From the NCBI RefSeq assembly GCF_014672715.2, contig NZ_CP058566.2:1550001-1614000 (forward strand): a stretch of 64,000 bases of DNA. Reading direction: 5' to 3'. The translations under genes and the position numbers were made by a program. Shown here in pieces: positions 42,273-55,868 of the stretch. The notes beneath the pieces are model-generated. The model was not told the origin of the DNA and did no database searches. It worked only from the letters and a program-made list of their open reading frames with translations. This DNA comes from Dehalogenimonas etheniformans. Lineage in GTDB: Bacteria > Chloroflexota > Dehalococcoidia > Dehalococcoidales > Dehalococcoidaceae. The first letter of the stretch is position 1. The number at the start of each line of letters is the position of its first letter.

Positions 42273-42770
42273 CTATTCTTCCGGGATGTTACCGGCGAAT
42301 CCGCCTGGGATGTTATATTCTTCGAGTTTTCCGAATTCTTTCAAAGCATTTTTTGTGACTTTAAGAAGATAGTACGCCAGTCTACGCTGTTCCACATCAT
42401 CGAGTGTAGATACCAACTTAACACTATCATCCTCCGTAGTCATCTGACCGAGGATACTGCTACCTTGTGGGGTCAAAGCCAGGCTTATCTTCCCTCTAGA
42501 TCCTTTGGTAACGATCACAAGATCATTTTTAACCATTCGCCTGATCAGACTGGTTATGGTGTGGTGTTCACGAATCATTATCCGGCAAATATCACCAATG
42601 GAGATATCACGATTTCCATGTATGAGTTCCATAACTGTAGCTTGTTCCAGAGTCACACCGTGACGGCTTACATCACGCTCTTGGATTCTGTAGACGCTCT
42701 GGCGAGCGCGGAATAAAAGAAATATAAGGTCTGATGCCGGGACGGGTGGAAGCTGATTGTCTTTGATCAT
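42273..42770 (-). CDS. MarR-family transcriptional regulator
   Basis: The 165-residue protein has a winged-helix core: VTLEQATVMELIHGNRDISI, then GDICRIMIREHHTITSLIRR (recognition region) and VTKGSRGKISLALTPQG (wing). Helical dimerisation ends flank it. MarR proteins near rdhA genes in Dehalococcoides (RdhR type) repress dehalogenase expression. Its position between rdhA1 and rdhA2, divergent from rdhA2, suggests it controls one or both. The palindrome upstream of rdhA1 or sequences in the 176 bp before rdhA2 are candidate operators. Confidence 0.92.
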   Translation of the reverse strand: MIKDNQLPPVPASDLIFLLFRARQSVYRIQERDVSRHGVTLEQATVMELIHGNRDISIGDICRIMIREHHTITSLIRRMVKNDLVIVTKGSRGKISLALTPQGSSILGQMTTEDDSVKLVSTLDDVEQRRLAYYLLKVTKNALKEFGKLEEYNIPGGFAGNIPEE

Positions 42771-42833
42771 TGATTTTCCTTGATTTTTTTTGAGTTTATC
42801 ACCGGGGACTTATTATTGCTACTTAATTCTTTC

Positions 42834-42900
42834 TTAACCATACCTTAACCAAAAATAAGCATAAATGCGTATTTACACATCTTATATGATATCTTACAAT
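42834..42900 (+). promoter_or_regulatory. rdhA2 promoter with 11-bp tandem repeats
   Basis: TTAACC at 42834 and 42845 and TAAGCA at 42856 repeat every 11 bp. The block AAAAATAAGCATAAATGCG and TATTTAC (42851-42876) follows. TTTACA (42872-42877) and TACAAT (42895-42900) are spaced by 17 bp. The box ends 71 bp before the rdhA2 ATG, the same distance as at rdhA4. It lies in the divergent interval with the MarR gene. Confidence 0.7.
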
Positions 42901-42946: not shown

Positions 42947-44341
42947 ATGTCGAAATTCCACTCAAGTCTTTCCCGACGCGATTTTATGAAGGCCGTAGGT
43001 TTAGCCGGGGTTAGCCTGGGGGCGACCGCCGCGGCAGTTCCTGCGTTCAAAGATCTCGACGATCTAGCGGCCTCCAGCAATCAATCCCATCCCTGGTGGG
43101 TCAAAGATAGAGAGTTCAACGACCCAACCAATGAGATCGATTGGAATGCTTTCAAGCCTTATGATAACAAAATAAACCCCATGCCGACGATTAAGCCCGC
43201 TACCAAAGACGCCAACACCATCCGGGACAACAATATACAGAAGGCTGCCTTTGCCAATAAGGCACCTGGTGATTCCCTCAGGGATTATGCTTTCGGTCAA
43301 GGTTCGAGCTTTATTGGTCCCGATGCTCCATGGGATGGACCCACAGCGTCTTTACCGGCTAATGCGGAGGGTAAACGATGGGAAGATACTCCAGAAAATA
43401 ACCTTCAGATGATGCGCGCCGCCCTTCATACTTATGGGGCTGTATTAACGGGGGCTCTCGAAGTAAACGAAAAAACAAAGAAGATTTTTGATGCTTCTGG
43501 CTTTGTTTTTGATTCCAGTCCTGTGGGTACGCAAGATTCTGCCAAAGTGTACCACATCCCTGAAAAAGCTAAGTACATGCTGACCTTCGCGGTAAAACAG
43601 AACTACATCCAAAGCCTATTTCAACTCCGCTTGGACGACACTATGCCCGGCGGTTACGGTGTGAAGCTGGCTCTGGGTAATCAAGCTATCGGTCATGCAT
43701 ACTCCAATTCTTCCCAAACGGGTTATGCCGCTATGCGCATGGTCAAAACTCTAGGTTATGGTACGTATAAAGCAGGTGTAAGGGCTAACGTCCCATTGGG
43801 TATTTTCTCCGGATTAGGCGAACAGGGACGATCTACTGCTCTCCTCACTCCGCGCTATGGCCTCATGGTACGTTACACCAACTACTTTTTCACCGATATG
43901 CCGTTGGCGCAAACTCCACCGATGGATGCCGGCTTGCTCAAATTCTGCAAGACGTGCGTCCGTTGCGGGGAACGCTGCCCATCAGAATCAATCTCCAAGG
44001 ACAATGACACGACCTGGGATACCGCCGATAAGGGAAACCGCCCCGGCTTTAAAGGATTCTTCATGAATTGGCAATCCTGCATCGATTTCGGTTCTCCGGG
44101 CGCTTGCGGCAATTGCCAGGCGACCTGCCCATTCAACCACGCCTCAGATGGGGTAATCCATCCCATCGTTCGCGCGGTATCAGCTTCAACCGGCACGTTT
44201 AACAGCTTTTTCGCCACAATGGATCGGGCTTTCGACTATGCCAAGGCAAAGACCGACAGAGAACTAGAAGATTGGTGGACCCGCGACCTTGACAAATGGC
44301 AGGCTGACACTACCCTCGGGGCTGGAAAGAACGTCTGGTAG
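42947..44341 (+). CDS. rdhA: Reductive dehalogenase catalytic subunit 2
   Basis: The 464-residue protein starts at the ATG at 42947, with GGAG upstream (an upstream start at 42905 would bury the signal peptide). The Tat signal is LSRRDFMKAVGLAGVSLGA. Iron-sulfur motifs are CKTCVRCGERCPSESIS and the later Cys plus ACGNCQATCPFNH. The corrinoid-core segment shows MRMVKTLGYGTYKAG and SGLGEQGR. With rdhA3 and rdhA4 it forms a related subgroup. The protein ends soon after the second cluster, as usual. No membrane anchor gene (rdhB) follows. Confidence 0.97.
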   Translation: MSKFHSSLSRRDFMKAVGLAGVSLGATAAAVPAFKDLDDLAASSNQSHPWWVKDREFNDPTNEIDWNAFKPYDNKINPMPTIKPATKDANTIRDNNIQKAAFANKAPGDSLRDYAFGQGSSFIGPDAPWDGPTASLPANAEGKRWEDTPENNLQMMRAALHTYGAVLTGALEVNEKTKKIFDASGFVFDSSPVGTQDSAKVYHIPEKAKYMLTFAVKQNYIQSLFQLRLDDTMPGGYGVKLALGNQAIGHAYSNSSQTGYAAMRMVKTLGYGTYKAGVRANVPLGIFSGLGEQGRSTALLTPRYGLMVRYTNYFFTDMPLAQTPPMDAGLLKFCKTCVRCGERCPSESISKDNDTTWDTADKGNRPGFKGFFMNWQSCIDFGSPGACGNCQATCPFNHASDGVIHPIVRAVSASTGTFNSFFATMDRAFDYAKAKTDRELEDWWTRDLDKWQADTTLGAGKNVW

Positions 44342-44362: not shown

Positions 44363-44402
44363 ACAAGAAGAGGCAGGCTGAACAGCCTGCCTCTTCTTGT
44401 TC
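44363..44402. terminator. Bidirectional terminator between rdhA2 and the PAS regulator
   Basis: AACAAGAAGAGGCAGGCTG then AACAGCCTGCCTCTTCTTGTT is an almost perfect 18-bp stem with A and T runs on both sides, suited to stop both convergent transcripts. Confidence 0.9.
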
Positions 44403-44416
44403 GCGATAATGCCGCA

Positions 44417-45262
44417 TCAGTCCGGATCTACAAAGTAGTAGCCAATTCCGAATTTTGTCATGATAATCTTTGGTGAAGCCGGATCAATCTCAATTTTCTC
44501 TCTCAAATGGCGTACGTGTACCTTGATGATTTCGGCCGCCCCCGAATAAGCCACACCCCAAAGCTTTTCTGCAATACCAGCATGGGAGACCACTTCCCCA
44601 TTTTTATCCATAAGACATTTGAGTATTTCACTTTCAGTATCGGTGAGTACTACCATCTTGTTGTTGTATTGAACTACCCGTCGAGACAGTTCGAAAACTA
44701 GTTTTCGGTCTTTAGAGTTATTTTCAACCAGACTCTTTAGGCTCTGTTCTATCCGCCGTCTTTGATAACGCTCTTCAACCAATTTAACGTTGGTTTCATT
44801 GAGCTGGTTAGATTTTTCAATAATTAATTGTAAAAGTCGCTCTTGTGCCAATTTCCGTTCGGTAATGTCTCGTACCATCGAAATCACACATTGTTTCCCA
44901 TTCAGGACAATAGTACGGCTACTTATCTCCACCGGAATCCTGTGACCATCTTTGGCCATGTGAGTCCTTTCGAAAACGACTCGGCCTTCAGCCTTTATAT
45001 GTTCGACAGTCGAATCATCGACCGTTTTGGGGTCATCAATGTCCATCGGAGTCATCAACTTTAATTCTTCCCGAGTATAACCGAGCATCCGGCAAGCCGC
45101 ATCATTAACTTCAATAAACGGTCCGGCCGTGCCGTCATGATTGATACCGTGAACCATAGCCCCGTCGTTACTAAGATTAAAAAGCAAATGGAACTTTGCG
45201 ATGTCTTCCTCAACCGTCGTCCCAACTTGTTTATGTTCAGAATTCTCTTCGTATTTTTTCAT
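44417..45262 (-). CDS. PAS-sensor / PhoB-type winged-helix one-component regulator
   Basis: The 281-residue protein has an N-terminal PAS domain (about 20-135: FHLLFNLSNDGAMVHGINHD, FIEVNDAACRMLGYTREELK, MVRDITERK), a helical coiled-coil-like linker (~136-190) and an OmpR/PhoB-type winged helix (~195-281: VVLTDTESEILKCLMDKNGE, VKVHVRHLREKIE, GIGYYFVDPD). There is no histidine kinase or receiver domain. A PAS sensor wired straight to a response-regulator-type DNA-binding domain is an unusual layout; rdh clusters usually carry separate kinase/regulator pairs. The gene is divergent from rdhA3, with GGGAGGT before its ATG. I infer that it activates the rdh promoters bearing tandem TTAAC repeats. 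Confidence 0.88.
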   Translation of the reverse strand: MKKYEENSEHKQVGTTVEEDIAKFHLLFNLSNDGAMVHGINHDGTAGPFIEVNDAACRMLGYTREELKLMTPMDIDDPKTVDDSTVEHIKAEGRVVFERTHMAKDGHRIPVEISSRTIVLNGKQCVISMVRDITERKLAQERLLQLIIEKSNQLNETNVKLVEERYQRRRIEQSLKSLVENNSKDRKLVFELSRRVVQYNNKMVVLTDTESEILKCLMDKNGEVVSHAGIAEKLWGVAYSGAAEIIKVHVRHLREKIEIDPASPKIIMTKFGIGYYFVDPD

Positions 45263-45324
45263 TTCGACCTCCCAACCTTAGATCACACCTCAAGATCTCC
45301 AAGTGGCTTTGGATCGAAGCGGTT

Positions 45325-45390
45325 TTAACAATTCTTAACGGAAAATCAGCATAAATACCGATATACCGAATATCAGAAACGTTATACCAT
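45325..45390 (+). promoter_or_regulatory. rdhA3 promoter with tandem repeats
   Basis: TTAACA (45325), TTAACG (45335) and TCAGCA (45346) repeat at 10-11 bp. The GAAAATCAGCATAAAT box follows. TATACC (45362-45367) and TACCAT (45385-45390) are 17 bp apart, in the same places as the -35 and -10 of rdhA2 and rdhA4. It lies between rdhA3 and the divergent PAS-winged-helix gene. Confidence 0.65.
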
Positions 45391-45461: not shown

Positions 45462-46892
45462 GTGATGAAGGGGTTCCATTCAACGGTTAGCCGCAGGGAT
45501 TTCATGAAGGGTCTGGGCCTGGCCGGCGCGGGTGTCTCCGCGGCAGCGGCACTCGGCGCTCCGGTTTTTCACGACCTGGACGAAGCCGCAAGCAGCGTCT
45601 ACGGGAAAAAATCATGGTGGATCAACGAACGCGATCACGAAGACATCACTACCGAGGTCGATTGGAAGGTTTACCAGGCCTATGATCCAGCTACTCATCC
45701 AGCGGTTCCCGTTTCTCAGGAAGTTAAGGATGCAACGACTGCCAGATTGGCCGAGGATAAAGCGCTTGGCCTGGCAGGAAAAAAGGCAGGGTTTGACCGC
45801 CGCGCCTGGGCTTGGTACTCGGCTTCCGGGGTAGGCGGCTTGGATACCGACTGGAACGGCAACGTTTATGGTACCGGCGTTCTAAATTATTGGAAGCCGG
45901 CGGCAACCGACGTCACTCAGCCATGGAGCAAGGATCCCGATTATAACTTAAAAGTGCTGCAGGCCGCCTTCCACTCCTTCGGTACACCCACCGTCGGCGT
46001 TGTCGAGATTACCGAACATATACAGCGGCTGTTCAATAAAGGCACGGTTTCATGGGGTGAAAATATTGCCGAGCCTACTTATGATGCCAACAAAGTGTAC
46101 CATATCCCTGCTAAAGCTAAGTACATGGTCGTTTGGGAAACCCAAATGTCCCAGCGGCAGAGCACCTACACCTATTCTGAGTACCCGACCCCTAGCGGCT
46201 ACGGTTCGGCACCGCCCATCGGACGGATGGATTCCCAAGCTTATAATTATGCCAGACTCGTTCGCGCCCAAGCCGTCTCGTTTATGAAAGGTCTGGGGTG
46301 GCTAGCAGTCAAGCCATCACCAAGTTTTCCGGTGCAGAGCACGGCTCACGGCATTTTTGCCGGTCTTGGGGAACAGGCACGCCCAAACTACAGAATGAGC
46401 CCGAATTTCGGCCTAAACATGCGCTATGCCAACATCGCTGTTACCGATATGCCGCTCACTCCGACTAAACCTATTGATTTCGGCGGCCACCGCTTTTGCA
46501 ATGGCTGCAAACGTTGTGGCGAGGTTTGCCCGACAGGTTCTATAGATATGTCAGATGAACCACGGTGGGAGACGGTCGTACCTAAAAACAATGCTGGTAT
46601 TAAAGCCTTCTTCATGAACTGGGACACATGCCCAGGATTTGGTTCACCGGCACACTGCGGTATCTGCCAACCCACCTGCCCATTCAACCATGCACCTGAA
46701 GCAATCATTCATCCTATCATCAGGGTCACAGCCTCGACAACCGGTATGTTTAACGGGTTCTTCGGACAGATGGATCGAGCGTTTGGTTACAGCAAGGTTA
46801 GATCCGATGACGAGATGGAAGGTTGGTGGACCCGGGAACTATCGACAGACAAGGGTGACACCATCTTCGGCGCCGGCAAGTTCATGTGGTAA
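45462..46892 (+). CDS. rdhA: Reductive dehalogenase catalytic subunit 3
   Basis: The ~475-residue protein has the Tat signal VSRRDFMKGLGLAGAGVSAA. Iron-sulfur motifs are CNGCKRCGEVCPTGSID and the later Cys with HCGICQPTCPFNH. The core shows ARLVRAQAVSFMKGLGWLAV and AGLGEQARPN. GTG at 45462 and ATG at 45465 are adjacent starts; GGAG lies just upstream. It is the gene immediately divergent from the PAS-winged-helix regulator and so the likeliest direct target. No rdhB follows. Confidence 0.96.
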   Translation: MMKGFHSTVSRRDFMKGLGLAGAGVSAAAALGAPVFHDLDEAASSVYGKKSWWINERDHEDITTEVDWKVYQAYDPATHPAVPVSQEVKDATTARLAEDKALGLAGKKAGFDRRAWAWYSASGVGGLDTDWNGNVYGTGVLNYWKPAATDVTQPWSKDPDYNLKVLQAAFHSFGTPTVGVVEITEHIQRLFNKGTVSWGENIAEPTYDANKVYHIPAKAKYMVVWETQMSQRQSTYTYSEYPTPSGYGSAPPIGRMDSQAYNYARLVRAQAVSFMKGLGWLAVKPSPSFPVQSTAHGIFAGLGEQARPNYRMSPNFGLNMRYANIAVTDMPLTPTKPIDFGGHRFCNGCKRCGEVCPTGSIDMSDEPRWETVVPKNNAGIKAFFMNWDTCPGFGSPAHCGICQPTCPFNHAPEAIIHPIIRVTASTTGMFNGFFGQMDRAFGYSKVRSDDEMEGWWTRELSTDKGDTIFGAGKFMW

Positions 46893-46968: not shown

Positions 46969-47035
46969 TTAACCATTTCTTAACTAAAAATCAGCATAAA
47001 TGCGTATTTACATGTCGTATAAGATACGTTACAAT
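46969..47035 (+). promoter_or_regulatory. rdhA4 promoter with 11-bp tandem repeats
   Basis: TTAACC (46969), TTAACT (46980) and TCAGCA (46991) repeat every 11 bp. The box AAAAATCAGCATAAATGCG and TATTTAC (46986-47011) is nearly identical to that of rdhA2. TTTACA (47007-47012) and TACAAT (47030-47035) are 17 bp apart. The box ends 71 bp before the start codon. Confidence 0.72.
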
Positions 47036-47081: not shown

Positions 47082-48482
47082 ATGATGTCCGGTTTCCATA
47101 GTACACTATCCCGGCGGGATTTCATGAAAGGCCTGGGATTGGCCGGTGCAGGCATCGGCGTCGCCGGAGCTGTAGCTCCCACGTTCAACGACCTCGACCA
47201 ATTGGCAGCAACAACGACCAATAAACGCCATCCCTGGTGGGTCAAAGAGAATGAACTCAATGTCCTGACTTCAGACATCGATTGGAATGTATTTGCCCAA
47301 CTGGATAAAAAGACGACAGGGATGCCGTCACCGAGCGCTGAAAACGAAGCTTTGCGTGCCGAACGAGATAAGAAGTTCGATCTTGAGGGCATGACTCAAA
47401 AAATCCCCGGGCGTGACGTTAGATGCGCTGCCTTAGCCGATATGGTTACCGGTCTTCAGACTGCAGCCCCTTGGGACGGTCCCAGCGGTATCGTTCCACC
47501 GCAAGAAAACGGGGCCAGCGCCTGGCAAGGAACCCCTGAAGATAATATGACGATGCTACGCGCTGCTTTGCACCTTGCCGGCGCGGCCCAGGTTGGCGCA
47601 ATGGAGCTAACTGAAAAAATGCTCCGGAACTTCGACAAAGGGGCTGTGGTTTTTGAAGATATTGCCAAAGGGACTGTTGATGCTAAAAAAGTGTATCACA
47701 TTCCCCAGAAGGCCAAATACCTCCTTACCTATTCGATTCAACAGAATTATGTGCAGTGCATTTATCAGCTGCGCGAAGACCCGGCTTACCCAGGGAAATT
47801 AGCTATGCCAATGCCTCTAGGCCGCCCCGCAATTCACCGGGCATATGGCGATGGCCGCTATACCGAGTGGCAGGCTATGCGCTTCGTCAAGAACCTGGGC
47901 TACGGGGCTTACAAGGCGGGCGTAACTACTAACGTCTCGTTAGGTCTTTTCTCTGGTCTGGGCGAGCAAGGCCGGGCTACCTACATGATGACACCACGCT
48001 CCGGTCTGATGACGCGCATCACCAACTATATCATCACGGATCTCCCATTAGCACCGACTAATCCTATCGATTTCGGCGGCAGCAAGTTCTGCGAGACCTG
48101 CATGCGATGCGCCGAGAAATGCCCGAGCGATGCTCTGGGCACTCAAAAAGAGCCAACCTGGGATGCTGGTCCGGGAAATAAACCCGGGTATAAGGGCTGG
48201 CGAGTAGACTGGTTGAAGTGCCGCGAAGTAGGCGCACCATCCCGCTGCGGTGTCTGCCATACACTATGTCCGTTCAATCACCCGAATGAAGGCATGATCC
48301 ACCCTATAGTACGATCTACCGCAGCTACCACACCGATTTTCAACAGCTTCTTTGCTACAATGGACCGCACATTTGCATACGCAGAACCCAAGAGTCCTGA
48401 GGAGTTGGAAGCCTGGTGGACACGCGATCTCGAAAATTGGAGACCGGACGTTACACACGGTGCTGGTAAGTTCACCTGGTAG
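47082..48482 (+). CDS. rdhA: Reductive dehalogenase catalytic subunit 4
   Basis: The 466-residue protein has the Tat signal LSRRDFMKGLGLAGAGIGVA. Iron-sulfur motifs are CETCMRCAEKCPSDALG and the later Cys with RCGVCHTLCPFNH. The core shows MRFVKNLGYGAYKAGV and SGLGEQGRA. It resembles rdhA2 most in the corrinoid core (LGYGTYKAG vs LGYGAYKAG) and its promoter box is nearly the same, suggesting duplication of gene plus promoter. The stop is followed by a weak hairpin (GAGGAG/CTCCTC). No rdhB follows. Confidence 0.97.
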   Translation: MMSGFHSTLSRRDFMKGLGLAGAGIGVAGAVAPTFNDLDQLAATTTNKRHPWWVKENELNVLTSDIDWNVFAQLDKKTTGMPSPSAENEALRAERDKKFDLEGMTQKIPGRDVRCAALADMVTGLQTAAPWDGPSGIVPPQENGASAWQGTPEDNMTMLRAALHLAGAAQVGAMELTEKMLRNFDKGAVVFEDIAKGTVDAKKVYHIPQKAKYLLTYSIQQNYVQCIYQLREDPAYPGKLAMPMPLGRPAIHRAYGDGRYTEWQAMRFVKNLGYGAYKAGVTTNVSLGLFSGLGEQGRATYMMTPRSGLMTRITNYIITDLPLAPTNPIDFGGSKFCETCMRCAEKCPSDALGTQKEPTWDAGPGNKPGYKGWRVDWLKCREVGAPSRCGVCHTLCPFNHPNEGMIHPIVRSTAATTPIFNSFFATMDRTFAYAEPKSPEELEAWWTRDLENWRPDVTHGAGKFTW

Positions 48483-49398: not shown

Positions 49399-49971
49399 AT
49401 GAGAGTATTACTCGTAAACCCTGGTTCTGAAGTCAATCCCCGCTTCAAGACGTATGCCGTTTTCCCCAATGGCATTCTGTTCCTGGCGGCGGTGCTGGAA
49501 CGCGCCCGACTCGGCACAAAACGCGGTTCCTTCCCCGCTTTCCGGGGCAGCGTTTTCGATCTTCCCGGCGCTTCTCCGATGCGTAACGCCGCCCGCACCA
49601 CGGTTGCACCCACCGGAACGCTATCGATTATTGCCGGGTGTTCCTGCGGCATCGAGCCCCTGTTTTCGGTGGCTTTTGTCCGGCACATGCTGGACGGCGA
49701 GCGGTTGCTTGACCTCGGATTCAAACCCATGATCATCGTCGCCGATTCGGAAATGGGCCCCTCGATGCTGGGGAAGGTTCTCACCCACGAGATCTTGGAC
49801 CAACTTAAAGCCAGGTATGAACACCTTCCCGATGAGAACGCCAGGATTTACTACCATACCTTTGTGATCGACGGCCCGATTTTTAAGAAGCGCCTGGAGA
49901 TAACGGAAAGCGATAAAGTTGTGGCTGGCCCAATATCGTACCTGGACATCAAAAAGTTCGAACTTAGATGA
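49399..49971 (+). pseudogene. Chimeric open frame: B12-domain start + NrdJ fragment + unknown tail
   Basis: The 190-codon frame has no internal stop but is a patchwork. Residues ~1-36 (MRVLLVNPGSEVNPRFKTYA, then FPNGILFLAAVLE) match the start of a B12-binding radical SAM protein. Residues ~37-108 (KRGSFPAF, then PMRNAARTTVAPTGTLSIIA, then GIEPLFSVAFVRHMLDG) match the substrate-binding core of the adenosylcobalamin-dependent ribonucleotide reductase NrdJ. Residues ~109-190 (PMIIVADSEMGPSMLGKVLT to the end) I do not recognise. NrdJ alone is normally over 600 residues, so no working reductase is possible. I read it as a deletion scar that happens to stay in frame. Confidence 0.7.
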
Positions 49972-53706: not shown

Positions 53707-53789
53707 ACAGGTTCAGTATAAAACGCCGACTTTAAGGCGCCTTTAAGGGAATGTTAAAGTTTTGTTAAATTTTCGGCGGTTTGCGGCAA

Positions 53790-53839: not shown

Positions 53840-55174
53840 CTACCGAGGCAGCGTGAAATAGAAGGTCGAGCCCTGCCCAGGGACACTCTCGGCGCGGATC
53901 TCGCCGCCGTGAGCTTTGACGATGTGCTTGGCAATGGCCAGCCCCAGGCCGGTGCCTCCCCCGCCGCGGGCTTTATCCGCCTTGTAGAATCTTTCGAAGA
54001 TGCGCGGCAGGTCTTCGGCGGAAATCCCGATTCCGGTGTCCTTGACGGCTATCTCGATGGCGTTTCCATTTTTGGGATATGCCGAAACGATGATCCGCCC
54101 GCCGGCCGGGGTGAACTTGATGGCGTTGTGGAGCAGGTTAACCAGCACCTGCTCGATACGGTCGGCGTCAGCCTGGACCGGCCTTAAGCCGGGAGTTACG
54201 TCGACCGACAACACCAGTTCCGCTCTGTCGGATTGAGGCTTCATGCGTTCGGTGACTTTGTTGATGAACGGGCCGAGGTCCAGTGGCTTTTTGGAAAGAG
54301 GCGCCTCCCCGCTCTCGATACGCGATAGTTCACCCAATTCGCGCACCATCTGGGTCAACTTGTCCGTTTCCACCTCTATCCTGTTCAGGAAATCTGCAGC
54401 CACAGACTGATCCTCGATGGCGCCGCCCTTCAAGGTTTCGGCGAGCAGTTTCAGCGAGGCGAGCGGAGTCCTGAGTTCATGCGAGATGTTGGCCACAAAA
54501 TCCCGCCTTACCCTTTCGAGGCGCTTGATCTCGGTCAGGTCCCGGACGACGACCACTGCTCCGGGTTCGTTTTTCGGCGGCGTTACCGTTACCTCAAAGA
54601 ATCTGCGATTGGAGCGGATTTCAACCGAGCCTTGCTGGCGCGTCCCGGAAGCCAGGCACGCCTTCACCAGGGCATCGAATTCATGGTCTCGGATGACATC
54701 GATAAATGTCCGCCCGACCGCATTGGATCCCAGGCCGAACATTTTTGTGGCCGTATCGTTCACCTTGGTGACCTCGCTATAGCGGTTTACGACAAAGATG
54801 GCGTCTGCCACGTTGTCCATCATAAGCTCAAGCCGGCTATTCTCGGACTCGAGCGACCTGAGCCGGTCGCCCAGTTGCTTGGTCATCTCGTTAAAGGTAT
54901 GTTTCAAGTCAGCCAGTTCGCCGATGGCCACCAGCCTCAGCTTATCCGGAGGCTCGCCGCCGCCCAGCTTTTTCATCGCCATCTCAAGCTCGAGTTCGTC
55001 CTCGGTCATCGACGGCACAAAAAAGTACATAGATACCGCCGCCGTCGCCGCCGAAGCGACACCTGCGATGAGGAGGGTCAGACTGAAACCGCGTATAAAG
55101 CCTACGACGGTCAATACCGCGGCAATAGCCACCACGGTAAACAGGATAAGGCTCCGGATGGAAGTGCTGGTCAA
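53840..55174 (-). CDS. phoR: PhoR-like sensor histidine kinase
   Basis: The 444-residue protein has two N-terminal helices (LILFTVVAIAAVLTVVGFI and TLLIAGVASAATAAVSMYFF), a HAMP-like linker and a PAS domain (~110-215). HisKA with FVANISHELRTPLASLK follows, then HATPase with NLLHNAIKF, DTGIGIS and GGTGLGLAI. The kinase is intact even though the phosphate transporter genes next to it are ruined. The start is a TTG directly after the phoB stop. The phosphate assignment rests on context and general likeness to PhoR. Confidence 0.85.
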   Translation of the reverse strand: MTSTSIRSLILFTVVAIAAVLTVVGFIRGFSLTLLIAGVASAATAAVSMYFFVPSMTEDELELEMAMKKLGGGEPPDKLRLVAIGELADLKHTFNEMTKQLGDRLRSLESENSRLELMMDNVADAIFVVNRYSEVTKVNDTATKMFGLGSNAVGRTFIDVIRDHEFDALVKACLASGTRQQGSVEIRSNRRFFEVTVTPPKNEPGAVVVVRDLTEIKRLERVRRDFVANISHELRTPLASLKLLAETLKGGAIEDQSVAADFLNRIEVETDKLTQMVRELGELSRIESGEAPLSKKPLDLGPFINKVTERMKPQSDRAELVLSVDVTPGLRPVQADADRIEQVLVNLLHNAIKFTPAGGRIIVSAYPKNGNAIEIAVKDTGIGISAEDLPRIFERFYKADKARGGGGTGLGLAIAKHIVKAHGGEIRAESVPGQGSTFYFTLPR

Positions 55175-55175
55175 G

Positions 55176-55868
55176 TCATTCCTCGAATTTGTAGCCGAAT
55201 CCCCGCACCGTGAGAAGGTGTTTCGGGTGGGAAGGATCGGCTTCTATTTTTTGCCGCAGCCAGCGGATGTGGACATCCACCGTGCGGCTGTCGCCCGGGT
55301 AGTCGTAACCCCAGACCCGGTCCAGGAGGCCTTCGCGAGAAAACACCTGGCCTTTATTGGTCATCAGGAACTGGAGCAGGTCGAATTCTTTGGGTGTGGT
55401 CTCGACAGCAGCGCCCGAAACCAGGAGAACGTGCCTGACGGGATCGAGCTCGATCTCCCCGGATCTGATCGTCGAAGTCTCGACGGGGCCCTGTTCGCGC
55501 TTAGCTGTCTCGTCCCGGCGGAGCATCACCTTGACCCTGGCCAGTAGTTCCCGCATTGAAAACGGCTTGGTCAGGTAATCGTCGGCGCCCAGTTCCAGCC
55601 CTAGGACCTTGTCTATTTCGTCACTCCTGGCCGTCAGCATCAGCACCGGCACGTGAGATTCCCGGCGTAATAAACGAGTGGCTTCAAAACCGTCTATCCC
55701 CGGCAGCATGACGTCCATGATGACGGCATCCGGCTTTTCGCGGCGGATAAGGTCCAGTCCTGAATTGCCGTCGGCGGCGGTGACCACCGCGAAGCCGTCC
55801 CGGTTCAGGTTGTATCTGAGTAGGTCGGCAAGAGTCCGGTCGTCTTCGACGACAGCGATTTTAGGCAT
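55176..55868 (-). CDS. phoB: PhoB/OmpR-family response regulator
   Basis: The 230-residue protein has a receiver (VVEDDRTLADLL, VIMDVMLPGIDG, LTARSDE, LTKPFSM) and a C-terminal winged helix (LLQFLMTNKGQVFSREGLLD, VDVHIRWLRQKIEAD, VRGFGYKFEE). It is transcribed just before phoR with 1 bp between them. As its usual targets pstSCAB-phoU are reduced to stubs here, it may now control genes elsewhere. Confidence 0.9.
   Translation of the reverse strand: MPKIAVVEDDRTLADLLRYNLNRDGFAVVTAADGNSGLDLIRREKPDAVIMDVMLPGIDGFEATRLLRRESHVPVLMLTARSDEIDKVLGLELGADDYLTKPFSMRELLARVKVMLRRDETAKREQGPVETSTIRSGEIELDPVRHVLLVSGAAVETTPKEFDLLQFLMTNKGQVFSREGLLDRVWGYDYPGDSRTVDVHIRWLRQKIEADPSHPKHLLTVRGFGYKFEE

Follow-up and report, generated by a model that had tools for sequence, protein, structure and literature searches.

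In organohalide-respiring bacteria, RdhS/RdhP-type two-component systems, which adjoin rdhA genes, pair a PAS sensor with an OmpR/PhoB-type output. OmpR/PhoB response regulators carry a Trans_reg_C winged helix and are associated with tandem boxes of 10-11 bp period, and MarR-type rdhA repressors of the Rdh2R kind are one-component proteins, encoded divergently from rdhA, which bind DNA through a winged helix. One-component regulators with a PAS domain linked directly to a DNA-binding domain are represented by the PAS-LuxR and PAS-Fis types, for which we know of no connection to organohalide respiration. For most rdhA genes in these bacteria, to our knowledge, neither an inducer nor a regulator has been described. 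CprK, a member of the CRP/FNR family acting on dehalogenase genes in Desulfitobacterium, is likewise a one-component protein with a ligand-binding sensor and a DNA-binding domain (PMC2610375). A survey of Dehalogenimonas published in 2026 lists only two-component, MarR and CRP/FNR regulators of rdhA, and 'PAS', looked up throughout its text, led to no mention of a PAS-winged-helix type (PMC13390414).

Strain GP ("Candidatus Dehalogenimonas etheniformans") respires vinyl chloride and has about 50 rdhA genes (PMC7729418). The window, i.e., the whole stretch of DNA analysed, comprises 64,000 bases (1550001-1614000) of its 2,068,322-bp single-contig genome. We herein describe a regulator in this window that joins a PAS domain to a PhoB-type winged helix, and that is most likely a cytosolic one-component activator of the neighbouring genes rdhA2-rdhA4.

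Architecture of the regulator

The gene and its parts are as follows.

44417..45262, minus strand: PAS-winged-helix one-component regulator, complete gene, 281 aa (Pfam, AlphaFold2, genome comparison)
44852..45199, minus strand: PAS domain, residues about 22-137 (Pfam, trees, AlphaFold2)
44711..44863, minus strand: continuous signalling helix, residues 134-184 (AlphaFold2 models)
44429..44668, minus strand: OmpR/PhoB-type winged helix, residues about 199-278 (Pfam, trees)

The sequence-only reading had described a PAS domain, a helical linker and an OmpR/PhoB domain in the absence of HisKA, HATPase and receiver, and both Pfam and AlphaFold2 confirmed this arrangement. PAS_9 matches residues 36-135 (2.1e-12) and Trans_reg_C residues 202-277 (6.6e-20; 71.4 bits, cut-off 26.2), while Response_reg, HisKA and HATPase give no Pfam match, so that the protein is neither a response regulator nor a histidine kinase; the MarR fold gives no Pfam match either. 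Sensor and DNA-binding output are thus held in a single chain without HisKA or receiver, as in one-component regulators, and a one-component function is likely for the protein. When each of the 27 Trans_reg_C open frames in the GP genome was inspected individually, an N-terminal receiver was found in 26, the 281-aa regulator being the sole exception.

These features set the protein apart from the systems described above. Unlike in RdhS/RdhP, sensor and output lie in one protein with neither kinase core nor receiver, hence without phosphotransfer; compared with OmpR/PhoB response regulators, a PAS domain and a long helix stand in place of the receiver. The MarR-type repressors have an unrelated fold without PAS, and the MarR protein of this locus is a separate neighbour (42273-42770). 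CprK combines a sensor of cyclic-nucleotide-binding fold with a CRP helix-turn-helix, whereas PAS and a PhoB winged helix are combined here, and the PAS-LuxR and PAS-Fis types carry a different DNA-binding domain. No PDB chain uniting PAS with such a winged helix was found by sequence search, and no described receiver loss of such kind by a literature search, most subscription journals being outside the latter's reach.

In the AlphaFold2 model of residues 1-185 (29 sequences, pLDDT 88), an N-cap helix and the PAS fold are followed by an unbroken helix of about 50 residues (134-184), which likely forms a coiled-coil dimer. The full-length model, built from two sequences and of low confidence (pLDDT 65), has the winged helix in place beyond a poorly ordered linker (181-194). 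LOV domains account for several of the best fold matches, but we rejected a LOV light sensor because the GRNCRFLQ-type motif with its adduct-forming Cys is missing. The fold also resembles FixL; no haem-ligating His was seen, by eye only, at the expected F-helix place.

Gene neighbourhood

The regulator gene lies among three rdhA genes and a gene for a MarR-like protein.

45268..45273, minus strand: ribosome-binding site GGGAGG of the regulator gene, before its ATG (read from sequence)
44364..44399, unstranded: terminator-like hairpin with 16-bp stem and 4-base loop, lying where the ends of rdhA2 and the regulator gene converge (sequence)
42273..42770, minus strand: MarR-like regulator, divergent from rdhA2 (Pfam; orthologue comparison)
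42947..44341, plus strand: rdhA2, 76% to L133:11199-12596 of G005
45465..46892, plus strand: rdhA3, divergent from the regulator, 66% to L133:7181-8584 of G005
47082..48482, plus strand: rdhA4, 65% to L133:12850-14256 of G005

The divergence from rdhA3 noted earlier is borne out, the two genes being separated by a 200-bp spacer. Between 40764 and 49971 there is no kinase or receiver gene that could make up an adjacent pair of the RdhS/RdhP type, and no hidden remnant of either was found beside the regulator gene. The three rdhA genes are 39-50% identical to one another. The regulator gene (44417-45262) and the MarR gene (42273-42770) have a G+C content of 43% and 45%, respectively, against 53% for the window. 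A further open frame of 190 aa (49399-49971) looks chimeric, as residues 60-154 match part of a ribonucleotide reductase barrel and residues 101-188 a domain resembling diphthamide synthase.

Origin of the two halves

Across 11 family genomes, the best matches of both halves fall in adjacent genes of the same genome. Residues 4-176 match the kinase L109:5775-8585 (49% over 173 aa, 2.3e-48), which has four PAS domains, HisKA and HATPase, and residues 170-280 match the response regulator directly behind it, L109:8582-9265 (49%, 5.7e-29), which consists of receiver and Trans_reg_C. This kinase-regulator operon of the parental type lies about 259 kb from the 281-aa regulator gene, and its two genes overlap by 4 bases. 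A maximum-likelihood tree places the PAS half beside the kinase's second PAS (bootstrap/aLRT 100/97), and the first 40 or so residues of the long helix match the helix that follows that kinase PAS. In a separate maximum-likelihood tree, the winged helix clusters with the family of the L109:8582-9265 regulator (99/94), branching outside the four regulator orthologues included in that tree; its score is 97-103 bits inside this family and 86 at best outside it. Because the two trees each point to the same pair, both halves, judged by their sequences, derive from one kinase-regulator operon type. The sequence-only reading had been correct on architecture, on the divergence from rdhA3 and on the presence of repeats, but this parentage had been missed.

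The close likeness to a kinase segment also allows for a different role, in which the fusion is a repressor or dominant-negative protein whose PAS and helix dimerise with the parental kinase, so that signalling by the latter is blocked. The PAS half with its helix is 49% identical to the kinase segment, and dimerisation is common in PAS-helix modules; however, a separate winged helix has been retained intact, and gene order couples the fusion to rdhA3 rather than to a kinase operon some 259 kb off, so that we hold such a role to be very unlikely. At several loci (L109:5775-10168; L120; L121; L122), a conserved kinase with multiple PAS domains precedes two successive, differing regulators of OmpR type, the second of which has a divergent receiver. 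This arrangement occurs in several Dehalogenimonas species and, in GP, lies away from rdhA.

A second fusion was found in another Dehalogenimonas species, G009, where a receiver-less PAS-winged-helix protein of 269 aa (L119:3644-4453) is encoded divergently from an rdhA gene (L119:1664-3232); homologues that are never near rdhA, which would have spoken against the sequence-only reading, are thus not what is seen. The GP and G009 proteins are 29% identical. For the latter, the winged helix clusters with rdh-linked response regulators from both species (97/97), and the PAS clusters with kinases of rdh-linked pairs (96/94; a long branch makes this placement less sure), i.e., its two halves cluster with the halves of an RdhS/RdhP-type pair. 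Since these halves trace to a different, rdh-linked pair, the G009 fusion seems from its sequence to have arisen independently. Its linker contains LVHDRLSDTL, faintly like the H-box LVHELKTPLT of a related kinase, which may be a vestige of the kinase core that was lost or a chance likeness.

In both likely parent pairs, the kinase comes first and the adjacent regulator overlaps its end, which is why an internal deletion could fuse them. For GP, we infer that it would suffice for a duplicate of the pair to undergo such a deletion and also to lose the kinase's first PAS. With a search model built from the GP and G009 proteins, no third full-length fusion was found among the six candidates scored per genome in 393 Dehalococcoidia and 400 Chloroflexota genomes (partly overlapping sets), and rare or distant fusions may have escaped at this depth. 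Nor do the genomes compared contain an orthologue of the GP protein itself. A protein-pattern scan of genome contigs gave one PAS match, in a Bacteroidetes MAG, and no fusion.

Promoter elements and the G005 locus

Upstream of the three rdhA genes, two kinds of element can be distinguished.

45325..45339, plus strand: tandem box TTAACAATTCTTAAC, 10-bp period, ahead of rdhA3 in the spacer shared with the divergent regulator gene
42834..42849, plus strand: tandem box TTAACCATACCTTAAC, 11-bp period, before rdhA2, with a third half-site TTAAT starting at 42823
46969..46984, plus strand: tandem box TTAACCATTTCTTAAC, 11-bp period, before rdhA4
42859..42900, plus strand: core GCATAAATGCGTATTTACA before rdhA2, with -35 TTTACA (42872-42877), 17 bp, and -10 TACAAT (42895-42900)
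46994..47035, plus strand: same core and promoter before rdhA4, with -35 at 47007-47012 and -10 at 47030-47035

The repeats claimed at 42834, 45325 and 46969 are real, have PhoB-type spacing and lie upstream of rdhA2, rdhA3 and rdhA4. TTAAC-N5/6-TTAAC occurs there three times exactly, against 0.08 expected from shuffled promoters, and the TTAAC pair is absent at 0-1 mismatches from the other 38 of the 41 GP rdhA promoters scanned. Combined with CATAAAT, the pair occurs three times in GP, always at this locus, and twice in G005, with none in the other nine family genomes or in a reversed control. For the winged helix of PhoP, binding to an 11-bp direct repeat (7-bp repeats and a 4-bp spacer) has been solved (PMC4832192). 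The boxes of rdhA2 and rdhA4 are located 22 bp upstream of the -35, and the rdhA3 promoter has a degenerate -35. Position and sequence would suit an activator in both respects, a box at about -65, upstream of the -35, and a -35 that is degenerate. TTAAC also recurs in tandem at two other places, as three copies following a response regulator gene (L114:3470-3500) and at window position 53768 on the minus strand, just past the kinase gene of a PhoB-like pair (53840-55868); these are possibly ordinary Pho-type boxes.

The core GCATAAATGCGTATTTACA, whose last six bases are the -35, is found in ten or so GP rdhA promoters and in others of G004, G005 and G009. In the form GCATARATNCGTATTTACA, including the -35, it is seen at about 20 rdhA promoters of four Dehalogenimonas species (GP, G004, G005, G009; L174-L198), and it is absent from the three genomes examined on the side of the sister genus Dehalococcoides. 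Upstream of it, the rdhA genes in several kinase-regulator clusters carry ATTAAT repeats spaced by about 22 bp, whereas rdhA2, rdhA3 and rdhA4 have TTAAC repeats 10-11 bp apart in their place. The core with two kinds of upstream repeat looks like a readable regulatory code. The view that the palindrome-like core is the MarR operator is too simple and was rejected: many rdhA genes that adjoin a kinase-regulator pair, but have no MarR gene in the vicinity, carry the core as well, so it is not MarR-specific.

Alternatively, the similarity of the boxes could be a leftover from duplication of rdhA2, rdhA3 and rdhA4 with their promoters, devoid of any regulatory role. The genes are indeed related and the core is common to many rdhA promoters, but unselected spacer DNA should not remain exact between genes of 39-50% identity, and the orthologous rdhA2 and rdhA4 promoters of G005 retain the core without exact boxes, so that we consider this explanation unlikely.

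In G005, the syntenic locus has orthologues of the MarR gene (67%) and of rdhA2, rdhA3 and rdhA4 (76, 66 and 65%), and the genome has no PAS-winged-helix gene. The rdhA3 orthologue, there divergent from the MarR gene, keeps the exact box, and a tandem box also occurs at one distant rdhA. Boxes specific to the fusion are rejected on this ground. Thus the earlier claim that the repeats are targets of the protein stands insofar as three promoters carry them, but the repeats are not tied to the protein. Since G005 keeps the box without the fusion, its reader may be the response regulator of the parental pair, MarR or another factor; since G005 carries a parental-type response regulator in addition to the boxes, these may have originated for that regulator and been inherited as targets by the fusion, or be read by both proteins.

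Two readings follow that would assign the rdhA group to another protein. According to one, the boxes are the sites of L109:8582-9265, the parental response regulator, or of some other regulator with a receiver, and the fusion competes for these sites or regulates only its own gene. The winged helix of the parental regulator is the closest to that of the fusion, and exact rdhA boxes occur in only two genomes, both with the regulator, one of them (G005) lacking the fusion. However, exact boxes stand at three of three orthologous promoters in GP against one of three in G005, and 15 kb of GP sequence around the parental operon contain no such box; we regard this reading as possible, without favouring it. 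According to the other, this rdhA group is in truth switched by the neighbouring MarR protein, and the PAS-winged-helix protein is a minor component or decaying relic. The MarR gene is conserved with the locus, and repression of rdhA by MarR has been reported in Dehalococcoides and proposed for Dehalogenimonas (PMC13390414). On the other hand, the fused gene is intact: it has a ribosome site and a terminator-like hairpin, and neither the PAS fold nor the winged helix is broken. Moreover, the core shared with kinase-regulator rdhA genes is not a mark of MarR, which leaves this second reading rather doubtful.

Proposed function

We lean towards a cytosolic one-component regulator, fused from the second PAS and helix of a kinase and the winged helix of a response regulator, that would activate rdhA2-rdhA4. 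Sequence comparison lends good support to its architecture, to its origin and to its recurrence; the TTAAC boxes as its targets and the activation of the rdhA genes are plausible. In this model, a kinase segment (second PAS and following helix) would have been joined to the DNA-binding half of a response regulator of the same operon type, and the phosphorelay core (HisKA, HATPase and receiver) dropped. The PAS domain may sense a small ligand or redox state, and together with the long helix would hold the dimer, while a short flexible linker (about residues 185-195) would let the two winged helices sit head-to-tail and contact TTAAC repeats 10-11 bp apart. From about -65, upstream of the -35, the fusion would then activate rdhA2, rdhA3 and rdhA4.

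Being a single soluble protein with candidate sites about 60 bases from the gene start, the fusion lends itself to experiment much more readily than a kinase with its regulator, and it could serve as a contaminant reporter. More broadly, we tentatively suggest that rdh two-component systems of Dehalogenimonas may have repeatedly collapsed into PAS-winged-helix regulators through loss of the phosphorelay core, and that such a protein may directly sense an organohalide-related signal and drive a group of rdhA genes via inherited PhoB-type boxes. With the parentage of both halves traceable in two cases, the change runs from two-component to one-component, opposite to the usual textbook direction.
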